From NCBI RefSeq assembly GCF_001463765.1, contig NZ_BBWK01000077.1:1-42382 (forward strand): 42,382 nucleotides of DNA, read 5' to 3'. Below the pieces are notes generated by a model that was not told the DNA's origin, searched no databases, and worked only from the letters and a program-made list of their open reading frames with translations. Below, piece after piece: positions 28,700-33,530 of this stretch. The DNA is from Aureimonas sp. AU4 (GTDB lineage: Bacteria; Pseudomonadota; Alphaproteobacteria; Rhizobiales; Rhizobiaceae). The stretch's first letter is position 1, and each line of letters starts with the position of its first letter. The position numbers and the translations under genes were made by a program.

Positions 28700-28705
28700 A
28701 TCAGG

Positions 28706-28737
28706 CGCCCGGCGGCGGATCGCTCCCCCGCCGGGCG
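28706..28737. terminator. Hairpin between convergent genes
   Basis: Perfect 10-bp stem CGCCCGGCGG / CCGCCGGGCG (28706-28715, 28728-28737) with a 12-base loop. It starts 7 bases after the small ORF stop, and the convergent MocR gene ends at 28778. No T-run. Confidence 0.5.
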
Positions 28738-28777
28738 TCGGAACGTCCGGGAGGTCGCCGCCGCGTCCGGGCGGCAC

Positions 28778-30190
28778 TCAGTTTCCCGACCTGAACAGGA
28801 CCTGCCTCAAACGGTCGAGGACCGCCGGGTCGGCCATCTGCGCCACGTTGAAGCGCATCCATTCCCCCACCGTCTGCGACAGGCTGAAGACGTTGCCGGG
28901 CGCCAGCACCATGCCTTCCTTCCACGCCCGGCGCGTCAGGTCGGCGGCGTCGCGCCCATCGGGCAGACGGCACCACAGCGTGAACCCGCCGCGCGGATCG
29001 ATCCAGGGCCGGATGCCGAGAGCCGCGAGCGAGACCGTCGCCTCCCGCCGCCTCCGCGCGAGCCGGGAGCGCAGGTTCACGAGGTGCTTGCGATAGTCGC
29101 CGTCGGCCAAAACGCCCTGGACGATGCCGGCCGCGATGGGGCTGGGCCCTCCGAAGTTCGTCGCCACCTGGAGATCGATCAGGCCCTCGATCCAGTCGGG
29201 CCGCGCCGCCACGTAGCCGCAGCGGATCGACGCCGACAGCGTCTTGGAGAAGCTGCCGATCCGGATGACGCGCCGGAGGCCGTCGAGGACGGCGAGACGG
29301 GGCGAGGGTTCTGGCTCGAAGTCTGCGAAGATGTCGTCCTCGACGATCGTGACGTCGTGGGCGGCCGCCAGCGTCAGGACGCGATGGGCCGCCTGCGGCG
29401 AGAGCGACGCGCCCGTCGGATTGTGGACGGCCGAGTTCGTGACGTAGAGGCGCGGACGATGGGCCTCGAGCGCCTGCGCGAAGGCGGCAAGATCCGGTCC
29501 GCCCGGCGTCATGGGCACGCCCACGGCCTTCACGCGGTGCGCGCGCAGCAGGGCTTGGAAGTTGAAATAGCAGGGATCGTCGAGAAGCACGGCGTCGCCC
29601 GGCTGCAGGAGGAAGCGGCACACGAGGTCGATCGCCTGCGTGCCCGAGCCGGTCAGGAGGATCTGCTCGGGGCCGGCCTCCAGACCCTCGATCGCGAACT
29701 GACGCGCGAGAAGTCCCCGCAGGGCCAGTTGGCCGCGCGTCGCGCCGTAGTCGGACAGAAGAGCGTCGTCGGCGCGCGCCAGCGCCGGCATCGCCCGCCG
29801 GATCGGCGCGTTCGGCATCCAGCTTGCCGGAAGCCAGCCGCATCCGGGCCGCAACATCTCCGGGCCGCCGTCGAGCGACTGGCGGGAGACCCAGAACGGG
29901 TCCACCGCGCGGTCGGCCCGAGGTTCGACCTCGGAAAGGGCTAGCGGCAGGCTCCCGGCGACAAAGAAGCCGGAGCCGGGCCGCGACCGGATCAGACCTT
30001 CGGCGCCCAGCCTGTCGTAGGCCTCGACGACCGTGGACGGTGAAACCCGCATGGACCGGGCCAGCCCCCGGATCGAGGGAAGCTTTTCGCCCGGCGCGAT
30101 CTCGCGCGTCGAGATGCGTCGGCGGATCGCCTCCATGACGGCGCCCGTGCGCGTCGACCCGTTCCCCGTCCCGTCCACCCGCTCCCCCAA
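28778..30190 (-). CDS. MocR-type regulator (GntR HTH fused to aminotransferase fold)
   Basis: About 470 aa. The N-terminal GntR winged helix (IRRRISTREIAPGEKLPSIR, then VSPSTVVEAYDRLGAEGLI and GSGFFVAG) is followed by a fold-type I aminotransferase domain with the PLP-binding Lys in IGSFSKTLSASIRCGY and NPTGASL. MocR proteins use PLP as a sensor of amino-acid or vitamin B6-related signals. The longest frame starts at TTG 30190; GTG at 30178 or ATG at 30136 are alternatives, though the last would drop the start of the helix-turn-helix. It is divergent from a DMT exporter gene, the usual target of such regulators. Confidence 0.9.
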   Translation of the reverse strand: MGERVDGTGNGSTRTGAVMEAIRRRISTREIAPGEKLPSIRGLARSMRVSPSTVVEAYDRLGAEGLIRSRPGSGFFVAGSLPLALSEVEPRADRAVDPFWVSRQSLDGGPEMLRPGCGWLPASWMPNAPIRRAMPALARADDALLSDYGATRGQLALRGLLARQFAIEGLEAGPEQILLTGSGTQAIDLVCRFLLQPGDAVLLDDPCYFNFQALLRAHRVKAVGVPMTPGGPDLAAFAQALEAHRPRLYVTNSAVHNPTGASLSPQAAHRVLTLAAAHDVTIVEDDIFADFEPEPSPRLAVLDGLRRVIRIGSFSKTLSASIRCGYVAARPDWIEGLIDLQVATNFGGPSPIAAGIVQGVLADGDYRKHLVNLRSRLARRRREATVSLAALGIRPWIDPRGGFTLWCRLPDGRDAADLTRRAWKEGMVLAPGNVFSLSQTVGEWMRFNVAQMADPAVLDRLRQVLFRSGN

Positions 30191-30302
30191 CCGTTCGGCC
30201 GAGCCGGCCCATACAGTTCGACCTCAGCGTACGGCACCGTTCCTGTCGCGAACAGCCTCGGTCGCGCTATCGAACCCGGCGGCATGGCAGCGGGAGGCGA
30301 CG

Positions 30303-31166
30303 ATGGAGCGCAGCACGGCGGGATGGGGCAGCGGCCTTCTGGGCGTCCTGATCTTCAGCGGATCGCTCCCCGCCACGCGGGTCGCCGTCGGCGGCTTCTC
30401 GCCCCTGTTCCTGACCTCGGCGCGCGCGGTGATCGCCGCGACGCTCGGGGCCGCGCTCCTGCTGGTCCTGCGCCAGCGCCGGCCGCGAGCGGGCGACCTT
30501 CCCTCGCTCGCCATCGTGTCGCTCGGCGTCGTGGTCGGCTTCCCGCTTCTCACCGCGCTCGCGCTCCGGCACGTCACCTCGGCGCATTCTGTCGTCTTCA
30601 TCGGTCTTCTGCCCCTCGCCACGGCGCTGTTCGGCGTCGTGCGCGGCGGCGAGCGGCCCCGGCCCGCCTTCTGGCTGTTCTCGGTATCGGGAGCCCTGGC
30701 CGTCGCAGGCTTCGCCCTGGCGCAAGGCGGCGCGACATCGCTTGCGGGCGACGGGCTGATGGTGGCCGCGATCGTCCTGTGCGGTCTGGGCTACGCCGAG
30801 GGCGCGGCCCTGTCGCGCAGGCTCGGCGGCTGGCAGGTCATTTCGTGGTCGCTTCTTCTGGCCATGCCCGTCATGGCGGTGGTCGCGCTTGCGACCCTTC
30901 CCGGCACCTTCGGCGCCGTCACGATGCCGGAATGGCTCGGCCTCGCCTACGTGTCGGTGTTCTCGATGCTGGTGGGATTCGTGTTCTGGTATCGTGGCCT
31001 GGCGCTCGGCGGCATCGCGGGCGTCGGTCAGCTCCAGCTTCTCCAGCCGTTCTTCGGCCTCGCGCTGGCCGGGCTGCTCCTGGCGGAGCCCGTCGCCCCG
31101 TCAATGATCCTGGTCACGGCCCTGGTCGTCGCCTGCGTCGTCGGAGCGCGGCGGTTCGCGCGGTAG
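30303..31166 (+). CDS. EamA/DMT family exporter
   Basis: 287-aa membrane protein with about ten helices in two EamA repeats. The first repeat starts GLLGVLIFSGSLPATRVAVGG, and the second closes with VFWYRGLALGGIAGVGQLQL and PFFGLALAGLLLAEPV, the hallmark end of EamA proteins. GGGAGG (30292-30297) lies 5 bases before the ATG. Drug/metabolite transporters of this kind export amino acids or related compounds. The divergent MocR regulator probably controls it. Confidence 0.9.
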   Translation: MERSTAGWGSGLLGVLIFSGSLPATRVAVGGFSPLFLTSARAVIAATLGAALLLVLRQRRPRAGDLPSLAIVSLGVVVGFPLLTALALRHVTSAHSVVFIGLLPLATALFGVVRGGERPRPAFWLFSVSGALAVAGFALAQGGATSLAGDGLMVAAIVLCGLGYAEGAALSRRLGGWQVISWSLLLAMPVMAVVALATLPGTFGAVTMPEWLGLAYVSVFSMLVGFVFWYRGLALGGIAGVGQLQLLQPFFGLALAGLLLAEPVAPSMILVTALVVACVVGARRFAR

Positions 31167-31281
31167 GGGAGGACGGCCGAGGCCGCACGGGGACGCGGCG
31201 AGCGGCTGCGGTCAACCCCGGTCACGCCGGCCGAAACGGCCCGCCGCTGGCCGGATTCCCGCGTCTCGCCGGTCGGCGGCT

Positions 31282-31576
31282 TGGTGTCTGCGGCGGGATT
31301 CGAACCCACGACCCCAGGATTCATACCGCTTCGGCTTTCGCCGCCGCCCTGCGGGCGTTCGCGGTCTGGACTGTCCCTTCACCCTAGGCCACGGCCCTTA
31401 GGTGCTGCCCTACCAGTCTCTACACCTTCCGGATCGCTCCGGCTTGGCTCGGGATCGGCACCTCGCGAGAGCGAGAAGCGTTCCCCGAATTTGAGCAGAT
31501 CCGACGCGCCCTTTCGGTACGCGCCGCCCAATTTCACTCAGGAATCCTGTGCTCTATCCTGCTGAGCTACGCAGAC
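31282..31576 (-). tRNA. tRNA-Arg(CCU), split by a group I intron, CCA encoded
   Basis: Two exons of 37 bases each fold into a complete tRNA. 5' exon 31576-31540: acceptor GTCTGCG, D-stem GCTC/GAGC, anticodon-stem 5' arm CAGGA, loop start TTCCT. 3' exon 31321-31285: loop end AA, stem TCCTG, variable GGGTC, T-stem GTGGG/CCCGC with loop TTCGAAT, acceptor CGCAGAC plus discriminator A, followed by CCA (31284-31282). The spliced anticodon loop is TTCCTAA, anticodon CCT, so it decodes AGG as arginine. All stems pair. The interruption is 218 bases with group I core motifs, the location known in Agrobacterium tRNA-Arg(CCU). Confidence 0.92.
31322..31539 (-). ncRNA. Group I intron in tRNA-Arg(CCU) anticodon loop
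   Basis: 218-base intervening sequence. It follows a U at the 5' splice site and ends in G (TATG), the group I rule. In transcript order the conserved core is readable: GGTGTAGAGACTGG (within 31413-31428), CACCTAAGG (within 31393-31405) and GGTGAAGGGACAGTCCAG (within 31363-31384), closely resembling the Azoarcus tRNA-Ile intron. A GAAA tetraloop hairpin (CGGCGAAAGCCG, 31332-31343) lies near the 3' end, as P9 does there. No open frame for a homing endonuclease fits. It is presumably self-splicing. Confidence 0.9.
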
Positions 31577-31586
31577 AACGGGAGGC

Positions 31587-31616
31587 ATCATCGCCCGCCG
31601 GGGGTTGCGCTGTCCA
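31587..31616 (-). promoter_or_regulatory. Possible promoter of the split tRNA gene
   Basis: TGGACA (31616-31611) and GATGAT (31592-31587) on the minus strand with an 18-base spacer. A start a few bases before the mature tRNA end at 31576 would follow. Four of six -10 bases match consensus; inferred. Confidence 0.35.
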
Positions 31617-31662
31617 GCCCAAAACGCGCCGCTCGGGGCCATGACGGCCGGAGCCGCGCGCG

Positions 31663-32307
31663 TCAGCGTGCGCTCTCGTCCTCCTGGAGGAGCACCAGGG
31701 CGCGGCCGCTCCGGCACCCGATCTCCACCGGGCCCGTCGCCTCGTTGGACTGGGTGAGCAGCGAGCCGAAGGGAAGCGCGACGTCGTGGAGCGGGAAGCG
31801 CGCGCCCCGGATCGTCAGCCCCTCGACGTCCGAGAAGCGCAGAACCGAGAACTGCGTGCCGTTGGCTGCATCGAGGCGCACCGGCTCGGGGCCGAGCGGC
31901 ACGCAGCGCTCGCGCCCGTCGCTCATCTCGACCCGCAGGCCCCGCTCGTGCTCGCGCAGGAGAAGCACGAGATGGCTGAAGGCGTGGTCGCTCCGCCCGC
32001 CCATGGCGCCCACGAGCAGGACGTCTCGCGCGCCCCGCGCCCGCGCCTCGACAAGCGCCACCTCGCCGTCGGTCTCGGCCTTGTCGCGCGGCAGCCTCAA
32101 GCGCTCGACGTCCGGCCAGCCGGCAAGGTCGGCGGGCGCGGCGGAATCGAAGTCGCCGACCCAGAGTTCGGGCGAGAGCCCGAGCGCCCGCGCATGGCGG
32201 ATGCCCCCGTCGGCGGCGACCGCGCGCCGGCCCCTCACCGCCTCCCGCAGGCGTCCGTTCGCATGGATCGGCCCGGCCATGAGGATGACGAAGCGGGTCG
32301 GGTCCAT
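31663..32307 (-). CDS. thiN: Thiamine pyrophosphokinase
   Basis: 214-aa thiamine diphosphokinase, which transfers pyrophosphate from ATP to thiamine to give the active cofactor. The N-terminal catalytic domain shows AVAADGGIRHAR, ELWVGDFDS, PRDKAETDGEVAL and GAMGGRSDHAFSHL, all family hallmarks. The C-terminal beta domain carries NGTQFSVLRFSDVEGLTIRG. It is divergent from the TPP-riboswitch-controlled thiamine importer, so uptake and activation are encoded side by side. A stop at 31663 is 87 bases before the split tRNA gene on the same strand. Confidence 0.93.
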   Translation of the reverse strand: MDPTRFVILMAGPIHANGRLREAVRGRRAVAADGGIRHARALGLSPELWVGDFDSAAPADLAGWPDVERLRLPRDKAETDGEVALVEARARGARDVLLVGAMGGRSDHAFSHLVLLLREHERGLRVEMSDGRERCVPLGPEPVRLDAANGTQFSVLRFSDVEGLTIRGARFPLHDVALPFGSLLTQSNEATGPVEIGCRSGRALVLLQEDESAR

Positions 32308-32368: not shown

Positions 32369-32374
32369 TGAAGC

Positions 32375-32464
32375 GTCCACACGGGGTGCCCATCCGGGCT
32401 GAGAGGCGGCTGTCCGCCAACCCGCCGAACCTGATCCGGATCGTACCGGCGGAGGGATGGGGGC
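32375..32464 (+). promoter_or_regulatory. TPP riboswitch (thi element)
   Basis: Classic thi-box layout: ACGGGGTGCC (32381-32390), GGGCTGAGA (32396-32404) and CCGAACCTGATCCGGATCGT (from 32425) running to ACCGGCGGAGGGATGGGG. These are the conserved pyrimidine- and pyrophosphate-sensing segments that bind thiamine pyrophosphate. It precedes thiBPQ, so excess TPP should switch off import. Confidence 0.95.
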
Positions 32465-32494
32465 CATCGCGACACCCGTCCCGACCCGGCGCCT

Positions 32495-32514
32495 CTCCTC
32501 TGCCCCTGGAGGAG
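32495..32514 (+). promoter_or_regulatory. Shine-Dalgarno-sequestering hairpin of thiB
   Basis: CTCCTC (32495-32500) pairs perfectly with GAGGAG (32509-32514), which overlaps the thiB ribosome-binding site, across an 8-base loop. There is no T-run, so the riboswitch output is probably translational: with TPP bound the hairpin would form and hide the RBS. Inferred from sequence. Confidence 0.5.
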
Positions 32515-32519
32515 TGCCG

Positions 32520-33530
32520 ATGGCCCGTCGCCTTGCCGCCCTTGCCGCTGCCCTGTCGCTTCTTGCCGCGCTGCCGGCGCGGGCCGAGGACAAGCCGGTG
32601 CTCACCGTCTACACCTACGAGAGCTTCACGCCCGACTGGGGTCCCGGCCCCAGGATCGAGGCGGCCTTCGAGCGGACCTGCGGCTGCGACCTGCGCTTCG
32701 TCGGGCTGGAGGACGGAGTCTCGATCCTCAACCGCCTGAAGCTCGAGGGCCCCTCCACGAAGGCCGACGTCGCGCTCGGCCTCACCGCCGAACTCGTCCC
32801 GGAGGCCAAGGCGACCGGGCTCCTCGCTCCCTCGGGCGTCGACCTCTCGGCGCTGAGCCTGCCGGGCGGCTTCGGCGACGACACGTTCGTGCCCTTCGAC
32901 CGGCTCGACCTCGCCTTCGTCTACGACTCCGAAGCCGTGAAGGATCCCGCCGCGTCGCTCGATGCGCTGGTGAACGGCAACCCGGACGAGAAGATCGCAA
33001 TCCAGGACCCGCGCACCTCGACGCCGGGCCTCGCCCTTCTTCTCTGGGTGAAGTCGGTCTACGGCGACCGGGCGGAGGCGGCGTGGGCGAAGCTCTCGAA
33101 GCGCATCCTCACCGTCACGCCCGGCTGGAGCGAGAGCTACGGCCTCTTCACCAAGGGCGAGGTACCGATCGTCCTCTCCTACACGACCTCGCCGACCTAT
33201 CACGAGATCGAGGAGCGAACCGACCGCTACAAGGCGATGCGCTTTTCCGAGGGCCATTACCGGCAGGTCGAACTCGCCGCCCGCCTGAAGGGGTCGCAGC
33301 ATCCCGATCTCGCGCAGAGCTTCCTGCGCTTCCTCCTGTCGCCCGAGGTCCAGTCGATCCTGCCCGTCACCAACTGGGCGCTGCCGGTCGCCCCGACCGC
33401 CGAGCCGCTGCCGGCCGCCTTCAGCGACGTCGTCCAGCCGCCCAAGCCCCTGGAGATCCCGGCCGAGGAGGTGGCGCGCCGGCGCGCGGCCTGGACCGAG
33501 GAATGGTTGCGGGCGATGGCGCAGCGGTAA
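32520..33530 (+). CDS. thiB: Thiamine ABC transporter substrate-binding protein
   Basis: 336-aa periplasmic thiamine/TPP-binding protein. Start at 32520 has GGAGGAG (32508-32514) upstream and opens with a signal peptide ending ALPARA (about residue 24). The mature N-terminus LTVYTYESFTPDWGPGPRIE and GCDLRFVGLEDGVSILNRL are ThiB hallmarks. Later come AFVYDSEAV, TPGWSESYGLFTKGEVPIVL and the TSPTYHEIEE segment. It is the first gene of thiBPQ, directly under the TPP riboswitch. Confidence 0.95.
   Translation: MARRLAALAAALSLLAALPARAEDKPVLTVYTYESFTPDWGPGPRIEAAFERTCGCDLRFVGLEDGVSILNRLKLEGPSTKADVALGLTAELVPEAKATGLLAPSGVDLSALSLPGGFGDDTFVPFDRLDLAFVYDSEAVKDPAASLDALVNGNPDEKIAIQDPRTSTPGLALLLWVKSVYGDRAEAAWAKLSKRILTVTPGWSESYGLFTKGEVPIVLSYTTSPTYHEIEERTDRYKAMRFSEGHYRQVELAARLKGSQHPDLAQSFLRFLLSPEVQSILPVTNWALPVAPTAEPLPAAFSDVVQPPKPLEIPAEEVARRRAAWTEEWLRAMAQR

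Follow-up and report, generated by a model that had tools for sequence, protein, structure and literature searches.

A group I intron in the tRNA-Arg(CCU) gene of Aureimonas sp. AU4 and its patchy occurrence in the genus

The tRNA-Arg(CCU) gene of Aureimonas sp. AU4 is interrupted between tRNA positions 36 and 37 by an insert of 218 nt (31322..31539, minus strand). These coordinates refer to the window, the whole stretch of 42,382 bases of contig NZ_BBWK01000077.1 that was analysed. ARAGORN, covariation and a held-out covariance model all point to a group I intron, and we put at about 95% the probability that the insert belongs to the group I intron family of alphaproteobacterial tRNAs and, as we infer from sequence comparison, is spliced as such. 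Group I introns in alphaproteobacterial tRNA-Arg(CCU) have already been published, and the window intron is an additional member. Less ordinary than the intron itself is its setting, which suggests that an intron-bearing gene replaced an intronless one at the same site.

The interrupted gene and its detection

With introns allowed (-i300), ARAGORN reported a tRNA-Arg(cct) in the window at c[31282,31576] and placed in it, from nt 38 onwards, an intron of 218 nt; this reproduces to the single base the gene, strand, coordinates and intron length of the original prediction. The 5' exon of 37 nt (31540..31576, minus strand) ends in U36, the last base of the anticodon, and the 3' exon of 40 nt (31282..31321, minus strand) has the encoded CCA inside it. 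Once 31322-31539 are removed, the joined exons form the full tRNA that had been foreseen: a 77-nt cloverleaf with the CCA encoded and every stem paired, including an acceptor stem of 7 bp and an anticodon stem of 5 bp (CAGGA/UCCUG) around the loop UUCCUAA, with a single G-U pair, in the T stem. It also holds in the sequence, as stated earlier, that moving the boundary by one base gives the anticodon CCG and breaks the U/G splice-site rule.

The expectation that ordinary scanning would overlook the gene was borne out. Default ARAGORN, without introns, found nothing in the window; the Rfam tRNA model, whose cutoff is 29 bits, yielded only two partial matches at the locus, of 16.7 and 15.9 bits; and none of its 43 genome-wide matches (RF00005) fell on the contig with the window gene. 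An Rfam YrlA match overlapping the tRNA-like part (18.2 bits) lay below its cutoff of 69. Of the 43 matches to RF00005, 42 proved to have other anticodons and one received no ARAGORN call. The genome gave one intron match, and an exact-pattern search revealed no intronless copy, so that no tRNA-Arg(CCU) besides the interrupted one was detected; the other arginine tRNAs have the anticodons CCG, UCU and ACG. The codon AGG makes up 14 of the 305 arginine codons in nine ORFs of the window; the gene need not be essential, since wobble pairing could let tRNA-Arg(UCU) read this codon as well.

To classify the insert we used a covariance model (R2) built from 14 alphaproteobacterial tRNA-Leu(UAA) introns, none of them from Aureimonas and none in tRNA-Arg. 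This held-out model matched 31549-31317 on the minus strand with 152.7 bits (rough E 3.8e-49), its single match up to E 10 across the 42,382 bases. Along with covariation over 31 introns, the match upheld the group I class originally proposed for the insert; the subgroup may be IC3. Both traits of the tRNA-Arg(CCU) intron family are present, namely insertion after U36 and the guide GGG. The R2 match also bears on a quite different reading, in which two unrelated tRNA fragments, left for example as the attachment scar of an island, complement each other by chance. The two weak partial matches of the Rfam tRNA model would suit such fragments, as would the position of the tRNA next to a segment missing from another Aureimonas genome (G007, see below). 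However, the held-out model recognises the spacer as an intron at a rough E of 3.8e-49 and the boundaries obey both splice-site rules; we regard this reading as already refuted by the model match and give it practically no weight.

A covariance match to the Rfam group I model had been set beforehand as a check whose failure would count against the prediction, and in the window the match was absent: Intron_gpI (RF00028) gave no match up to E 10 and none at its gathering score. We read the miss as a false negative that marks a detection limit of the model, and not as a defining feature of the intron, because related tRNA-Arg introns are missed too and R2 finds the window intron. RF00028 gave no match at E 5 to the four other Aureimonas tRNA-Arg introns (L003-L006), and two Agrobacterium introns in tRNA-Arg scored below its cutoff, L051 of A. 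tumefaciens UMA610 with 24.2 bits and L162 of A. bohemicum with 31.5 bits. A tRNA-Leu intron of another Aureimonas genome (G006) scored 29.8 bits, and among 17 further related loci 13 matched at E 1 and 5 reached the cutoff of 50 bits. Default ARAGORN and the Rfam models for tRNAs and for group I introns all overlook the only detected tRNA-Arg(CCU) of this genome, and similar genomes would therefore seem to be without one.

Comparative structure of the intron and its proposed splicing

The minimum-energy fold of the single sequence was no better than those of shuffled sequences (z -0.61, with 58 of 200 shuffles reaching an equally good fold), so that the case for the structure rests on comparison. 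For this an alignment (A1) of 31 introns was used, comprising 23 from tRNA-Arg, the window intron included, and 8 from tRNA-Leu. It leaves out L005, which a contig end cuts, L007, which ARAGORN did not call as Leu, L047 and L048, which coincide with L005 and L001, and L053, which received no call. Over the 60 pairs of P1 to P9, including the P3/P7 pseudoknot, 93.3% of cells were paired and double changes occurred in 34 pairs; the covariation score was 0.288 versus 0.121 in shuffles, and none of 500 shuffles reached any of the five structure measures. Sliding the partners by 1-3 columns reduced the pairing to 28-45%, a control in which the drawn structure is favoured by having been fitted to the window sequence and to RNAalifold output.

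From the 5' end of the intron, on the minus strand, the structure begins with P1 (31527..31542), in which exon CCU pairs with the internal guide GGG (31529-31527) and leaves a U-G wobble at the 5' splice site. P2 (31502..31526) is capped by a GAAA tetraloop (31515-31512) and shows double changes in 6 of its 7 main and both of its upper pairs. The 5' strand of P3 (31493..31498) pairs with 31410-31405, its 3' strand (31405..31410), in 100% of cells, with double changes in three of the six pairs and three invariant. In the P4-P5 domain (31449..31488) P4 is invariant and one P5 pair goes from G-C to C-G in 7 sequences; P5a is weak, with 25-63% of lettered cells paired, depending on the pair. P6-P6a (31425..31447) follows, with P6 invariant, and then the 5' strand of the guanosine-binding helix P7 (31414..31418). 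Its partner is 31373-31369 (the 3' strand, 31369..31373), with 100% pairing, four of five pairs invariant and one changed from G-C to A-U in 7 sequences. P4, P6 and these four P7 pairs, which do not vary in the 31 introns, provide pairing only and no covariation signal. P8 (31380..31404) has double changes in 3 of 4 basal and 3 of 3 upper pairs. The P9 region (31325..31365) bears the GAAA tetraloop L9 (31339-31336), and the intron closes with its terminal guanosine, omega-G (31322).

This bears out the group I core motifs and the GAAA-capped P9-like hairpin that had been recognised in the intron beforehand, with the P3/P7 core covarying. The L9 GAAA is present in 27 of the 31 introns; that of L2 stands at fixed columns in 20, and the remaining 11 are offset in the alignment. 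Docking of the GNRA loops L2 and L9 into P8 and P5 is the criterion for subgroup IC3. A U at position -1 of the 5' splice site and a terminal G are universal (31/31 each). P1 varies with the host tRNA, being CCU/GGG in all 23 tRNA-Arg introns, CUU/GAG in 7 of the 8 tRNA-Leu introns and CUU/GGG in the eighth, and the P10 pairing AUU/AAU is kept in 23 of 23 tRNA-Arg introns.

On these grounds splicing may be envisaged as follows. The pre-tRNA would fold first, upon which the intron guide GGG and exon CCU would pair and set the U-G 5' splice site. Guanosine held in P7 would cut there, and the freed exon would attack after the terminal G, with AAU of the 3' exon held by the guide AUU in P10; a mature tRNA reading AGG would then be released. 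Apart from being removed, the intron probably serves no function in the cell. That it might instead have decayed and ceased to splice, leaving the gene a tRNA pseudogene, is in our view very improbable. Such a reading could lean on the deduced status of splicing in the window copy and on the possibility that tRNA(UCU) covers AGG, but the exon stems and the intron core are all intact, and in P9 the window has a G-C pair where 28 of 31 introns have A-U. It is further opposed by the use of AGG in the window ORFs and by the failure to find any other CCU tRNA in the genome.

Alleles at the thiN-linked site in Aureimonas

The intron is present in 5 of 21 Aureimonas genomes (that of the window and four others), and in the remaining 16 the tRNA-Arg(CCU) gene is uninterrupted. 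Four of the intron-bearing genes are complete, the fifth being cut at a contig end, and these four share one exon set with a single variant base pair, in the acceptor stem; they start with GTCTGCG or GTCCGCG and have the anticodon stem CAGGA. The 16 intronless genes have acceptor and T-arm sequences unlike these exons: 15 start with GGTCCCA or GGTCTCA, with the stem CCAGA, and one starts with GTCCCGG. ThiN lies next to the tRNA in 15 of the 16 genomes with the intronless allele and in 4 of the 5 with the intron-bearing one, the contig end again cutting off the fifth. On an rpoB tree of 29 of the 30 genomes, from which G192 was omitted because of its fragmented gene, those with the intron lie scattered, with at least four changes among the 21 Aureimonas.

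The rpoB sister of the window genome (G000) is G007, and the flanks of the two are 87-88% identical. Window positions 28700-31654 correspond in G007 to 191 bp that hold its intronless tRNA. Homology ends 78 nt before the tRNA and returns 2.6 kb beyond it, and the only match inside the non-homologous stretch is one of 31 nt within the 5' exon. Outside the genus, the Antarcticirhabdus gene has identical exons and is 89% identical over its whole length. Besides the intron-bearing tRNA, the segment absent from G007 (28700-31654) contains genes for a MocR-like regulator and an EamA transporter; in the nine best other Aureimonas matches this pair lies on another contig than tRNA-Arg(CCU) or, in G013, 1.5 Mb away from it. 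On the other side of the tRNA, a thiamine pyrophosphokinase gene (31663-32307, minus strand) adjoins a TPP riboswitch (32372-32474, plus strand, 69.2 bits) at the start of thiB (ORF 32457-33530).

Patchy alleles, different exons and the same thiN-linked site together suggest that whole genes were exchanged: the intron-bearing gene would have arrived with its exons, and recombination would have replaced the intronless tRNA-Arg(CCU) next to thiN. We consider this the simplest reading and give it roughly even odds, noting that a single marker gene, rpoB, is thin support for it. The intron could also have been gained or lost in situ by homing or reverse splicing, with no need to replace the gene. 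This is the standard route of group I introns, and within the same family an empty-site pair illustrates it, as the intronless exons of G092 are identical to the intron-bearing exons of G125 and G196. The intron-type anticodon stem CAGGA/TCCTG occurs without an intron in G028, G038, G092 and G120 (loci L224, L221, L222 and L223, intronless tRNA-Arg(CCU) genes), and one related tRNA-Leu intron holds an HNH-like ORF. Against this, the exon set of the Aureimonas intron-bearing genes differs in acceptor and T-arm from all 16 intronless genes, the break in homology between G000 and G007 surrounds the whole tRNA, bar 31 nt, and Antarcticirhabdus shares both the exons and 89% identity across the gene. 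For Aureimonas we regard gain or loss in situ as unlikely and prefer whole-gene replacement, a reading that should not be generalised, because G092 versus G125 and G196 shows plain gain or loss within the family. With its patchy alleles, Aureimonas lends itself to the question of whether small introns move together with the tRNA gene that hosts them.

The wider intron family and comparison with known systems

A second model, R1, which includes the window intron, detected introns in 38 of 199 family genomes and in 49 of 385 class genomes, under stricter filters in which weak matches are lost; 8 matches of the family search fall outside the locus set. The pattern for an intronless tRNA-Arg(CCU) was found in 91 of the 199 family genomes, a count that takes in at least three intron-bearing genes (G023, G046 and G145), as the start of their intron mimics the pattern. 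Across the class, 42 of the 55 loci besides the window were given a host tRNA by ARAGORN and in-silico splicing: about 9 tRNA-Arg(CCU), 17 tRNA-Leu(UAA), 11 tRNA-Lys and 5 tRNA-Thr(GGU). Hosts were chosen by tRNA sense and guide, and many loci have equal-scoring alternatives despite filters on the anticodon stem and loop.

A fitting guide (GAG, GGAG or GCC) lies near the intron start in all 11 tRNA-Lys and all 5 tRNA-Thr(GGU) rows. Taken singly, however, 13 of these 16 guides of 3-4 bases do not exceed chance (20-73% of 2000 shuffles as good), and better values were reached by L127 (3.7%), L117 (6%) and L130 (8%). For Lys and Thr the guides are no more than suggestive evidence, because the short single matches are mostly equalled by shuffles. 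Related introns thus appear to reside in tRNA-Leu and, by weaker and suggestive evidence, in tRNA-Lys and tRNA-Thr. For the tRNA-Thr(CGU) and tRNA-Leu(CAA) candidates no convincing guide was found. The putative tRNA-Lys introns (L115, L126, L127, L130, L131, L132, L139, L140, L143, L150 and L151) lie in UUU or CUU anticodon loops with the guide GGAG or GAG, nine being read at 35/36 and two at 34/35. In the tRNA-Thr(GGU) loci (L117, L128, L129, L135 and L138) the intron follows U36 and GCC fits exon GGU; the guide of L117 is weakly better than shuffles and the other four, singly, are not. ARAGORN further gave longer inserts of about 310-430 nt at L133, L139, L143, L144 and L145, which are candidate introns. 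The locus L148 holds a 693-nt intron (1895-2587) in tRNA-Leu(UAA), with an ORF of 154 aa on the opposite strand (1990-2454, minus) that resembles HNH endonucleases (Pfam HNH_3, E 0.00052, 20 bits, under the cutoff of 24.8); it is possibly a homing enzyme for the intron family.

An intron-core tree was built from 80 of the 82 rows of the intron set, itself a selection of loci, after removal of the duplicates L152 and L153 and with exons and P1 omitted. In it the window intron falls in a 34-row Arg clade (100/100, the bootstrap not having settled) nested among Leu introns, with L096, L108 and L112 outside. When the Thr, Lys and Leu(CAA) rows and one unassigned row were omitted, the resulting Arg/Leu tree of 62 rows placed only L112 apart, and monophyly of all Arg introns was not rejected (AU p 0.216). 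Aureimonas G006 has an intronless tRNA-Arg(CCU) and a 221-nt group I intron in tRNA-Leu(UAA) at site 34/35 (L007/L125), presumably the site known from cyanobacteria; in the window genome the tRNA-Leu(UAA) gene (L274) is uninterrupted. An initial idea, that the G006 intron stems from a jump out of tRNA-Arg inside Aureimonas, was dropped, because a single clade of Aureimonas Arg and Leu introns, a group chosen after seeing the intron-core tree, was rejected (AU p 0.0105). Taken together, these data are compatible with an intron that spreads in Aureimonas along with its tRNA, by repeated replacement at thiN, and a family that has been retargeted to Leu, Lys and Thr hosts through a few guide bases; we hold this combined picture tentatively, at somewhat under even odds, an estimate lowered slightly in view of the guide shuffles, which also made gain or loss in situ a little more likely to us. 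As guide sequences vary with the host tRNA, retargeting is testable in vitro.

Among known systems, the Azoarcus tRNA-Ile(CAU) intron, which we take to be an IC3 intron, seems to be alike in its small size and in the GAAA loops L2 and L9, and has another host tRNA. The tRNA-Leu(UAA) introns of bacteria and plastids share the core, such that a model from 14 alphaproteobacterial ones finds the window intron, but they occupy site 34/35 with the guide GAG, whereas the window intron occupies 36/37 with GGG. Group I introns in tRNAs of cyanobacteria and of alpha- and beta-proteobacteria are listed in PMC4033280. For the tRNA-Arg(CCU) intron of Bartonella bacilliformis (BbgpI), PMC7717549 describes splicing both in vivo and in vitro and reports self-splicing. 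By this description BbgpI, from a genus other than Aureimonas, is like the window intron in its tRNA-Arg(CCU) host, in the CCT at its borders and in that the gene was unannotated. For the Agrobacterium tRNA-Arg(CCU) intron the same source refers to Reinhold-Hurek and Shub 1992 and to Paquin et al. 1999, the latter with a title that claims horizontal transmission and transposition. It confirms as published the earlier statement that Agrobacterium carries introns at this site of tRNA-Arg(CCU), and host tRNA and site are as in the window. The A. tumefaciens UMA610 locus (L051/L153) is 77% identical to the window gene, and its intron of 240 nt, compared with 218 nt in the window, differs in the P1 loop, P6a and P9.
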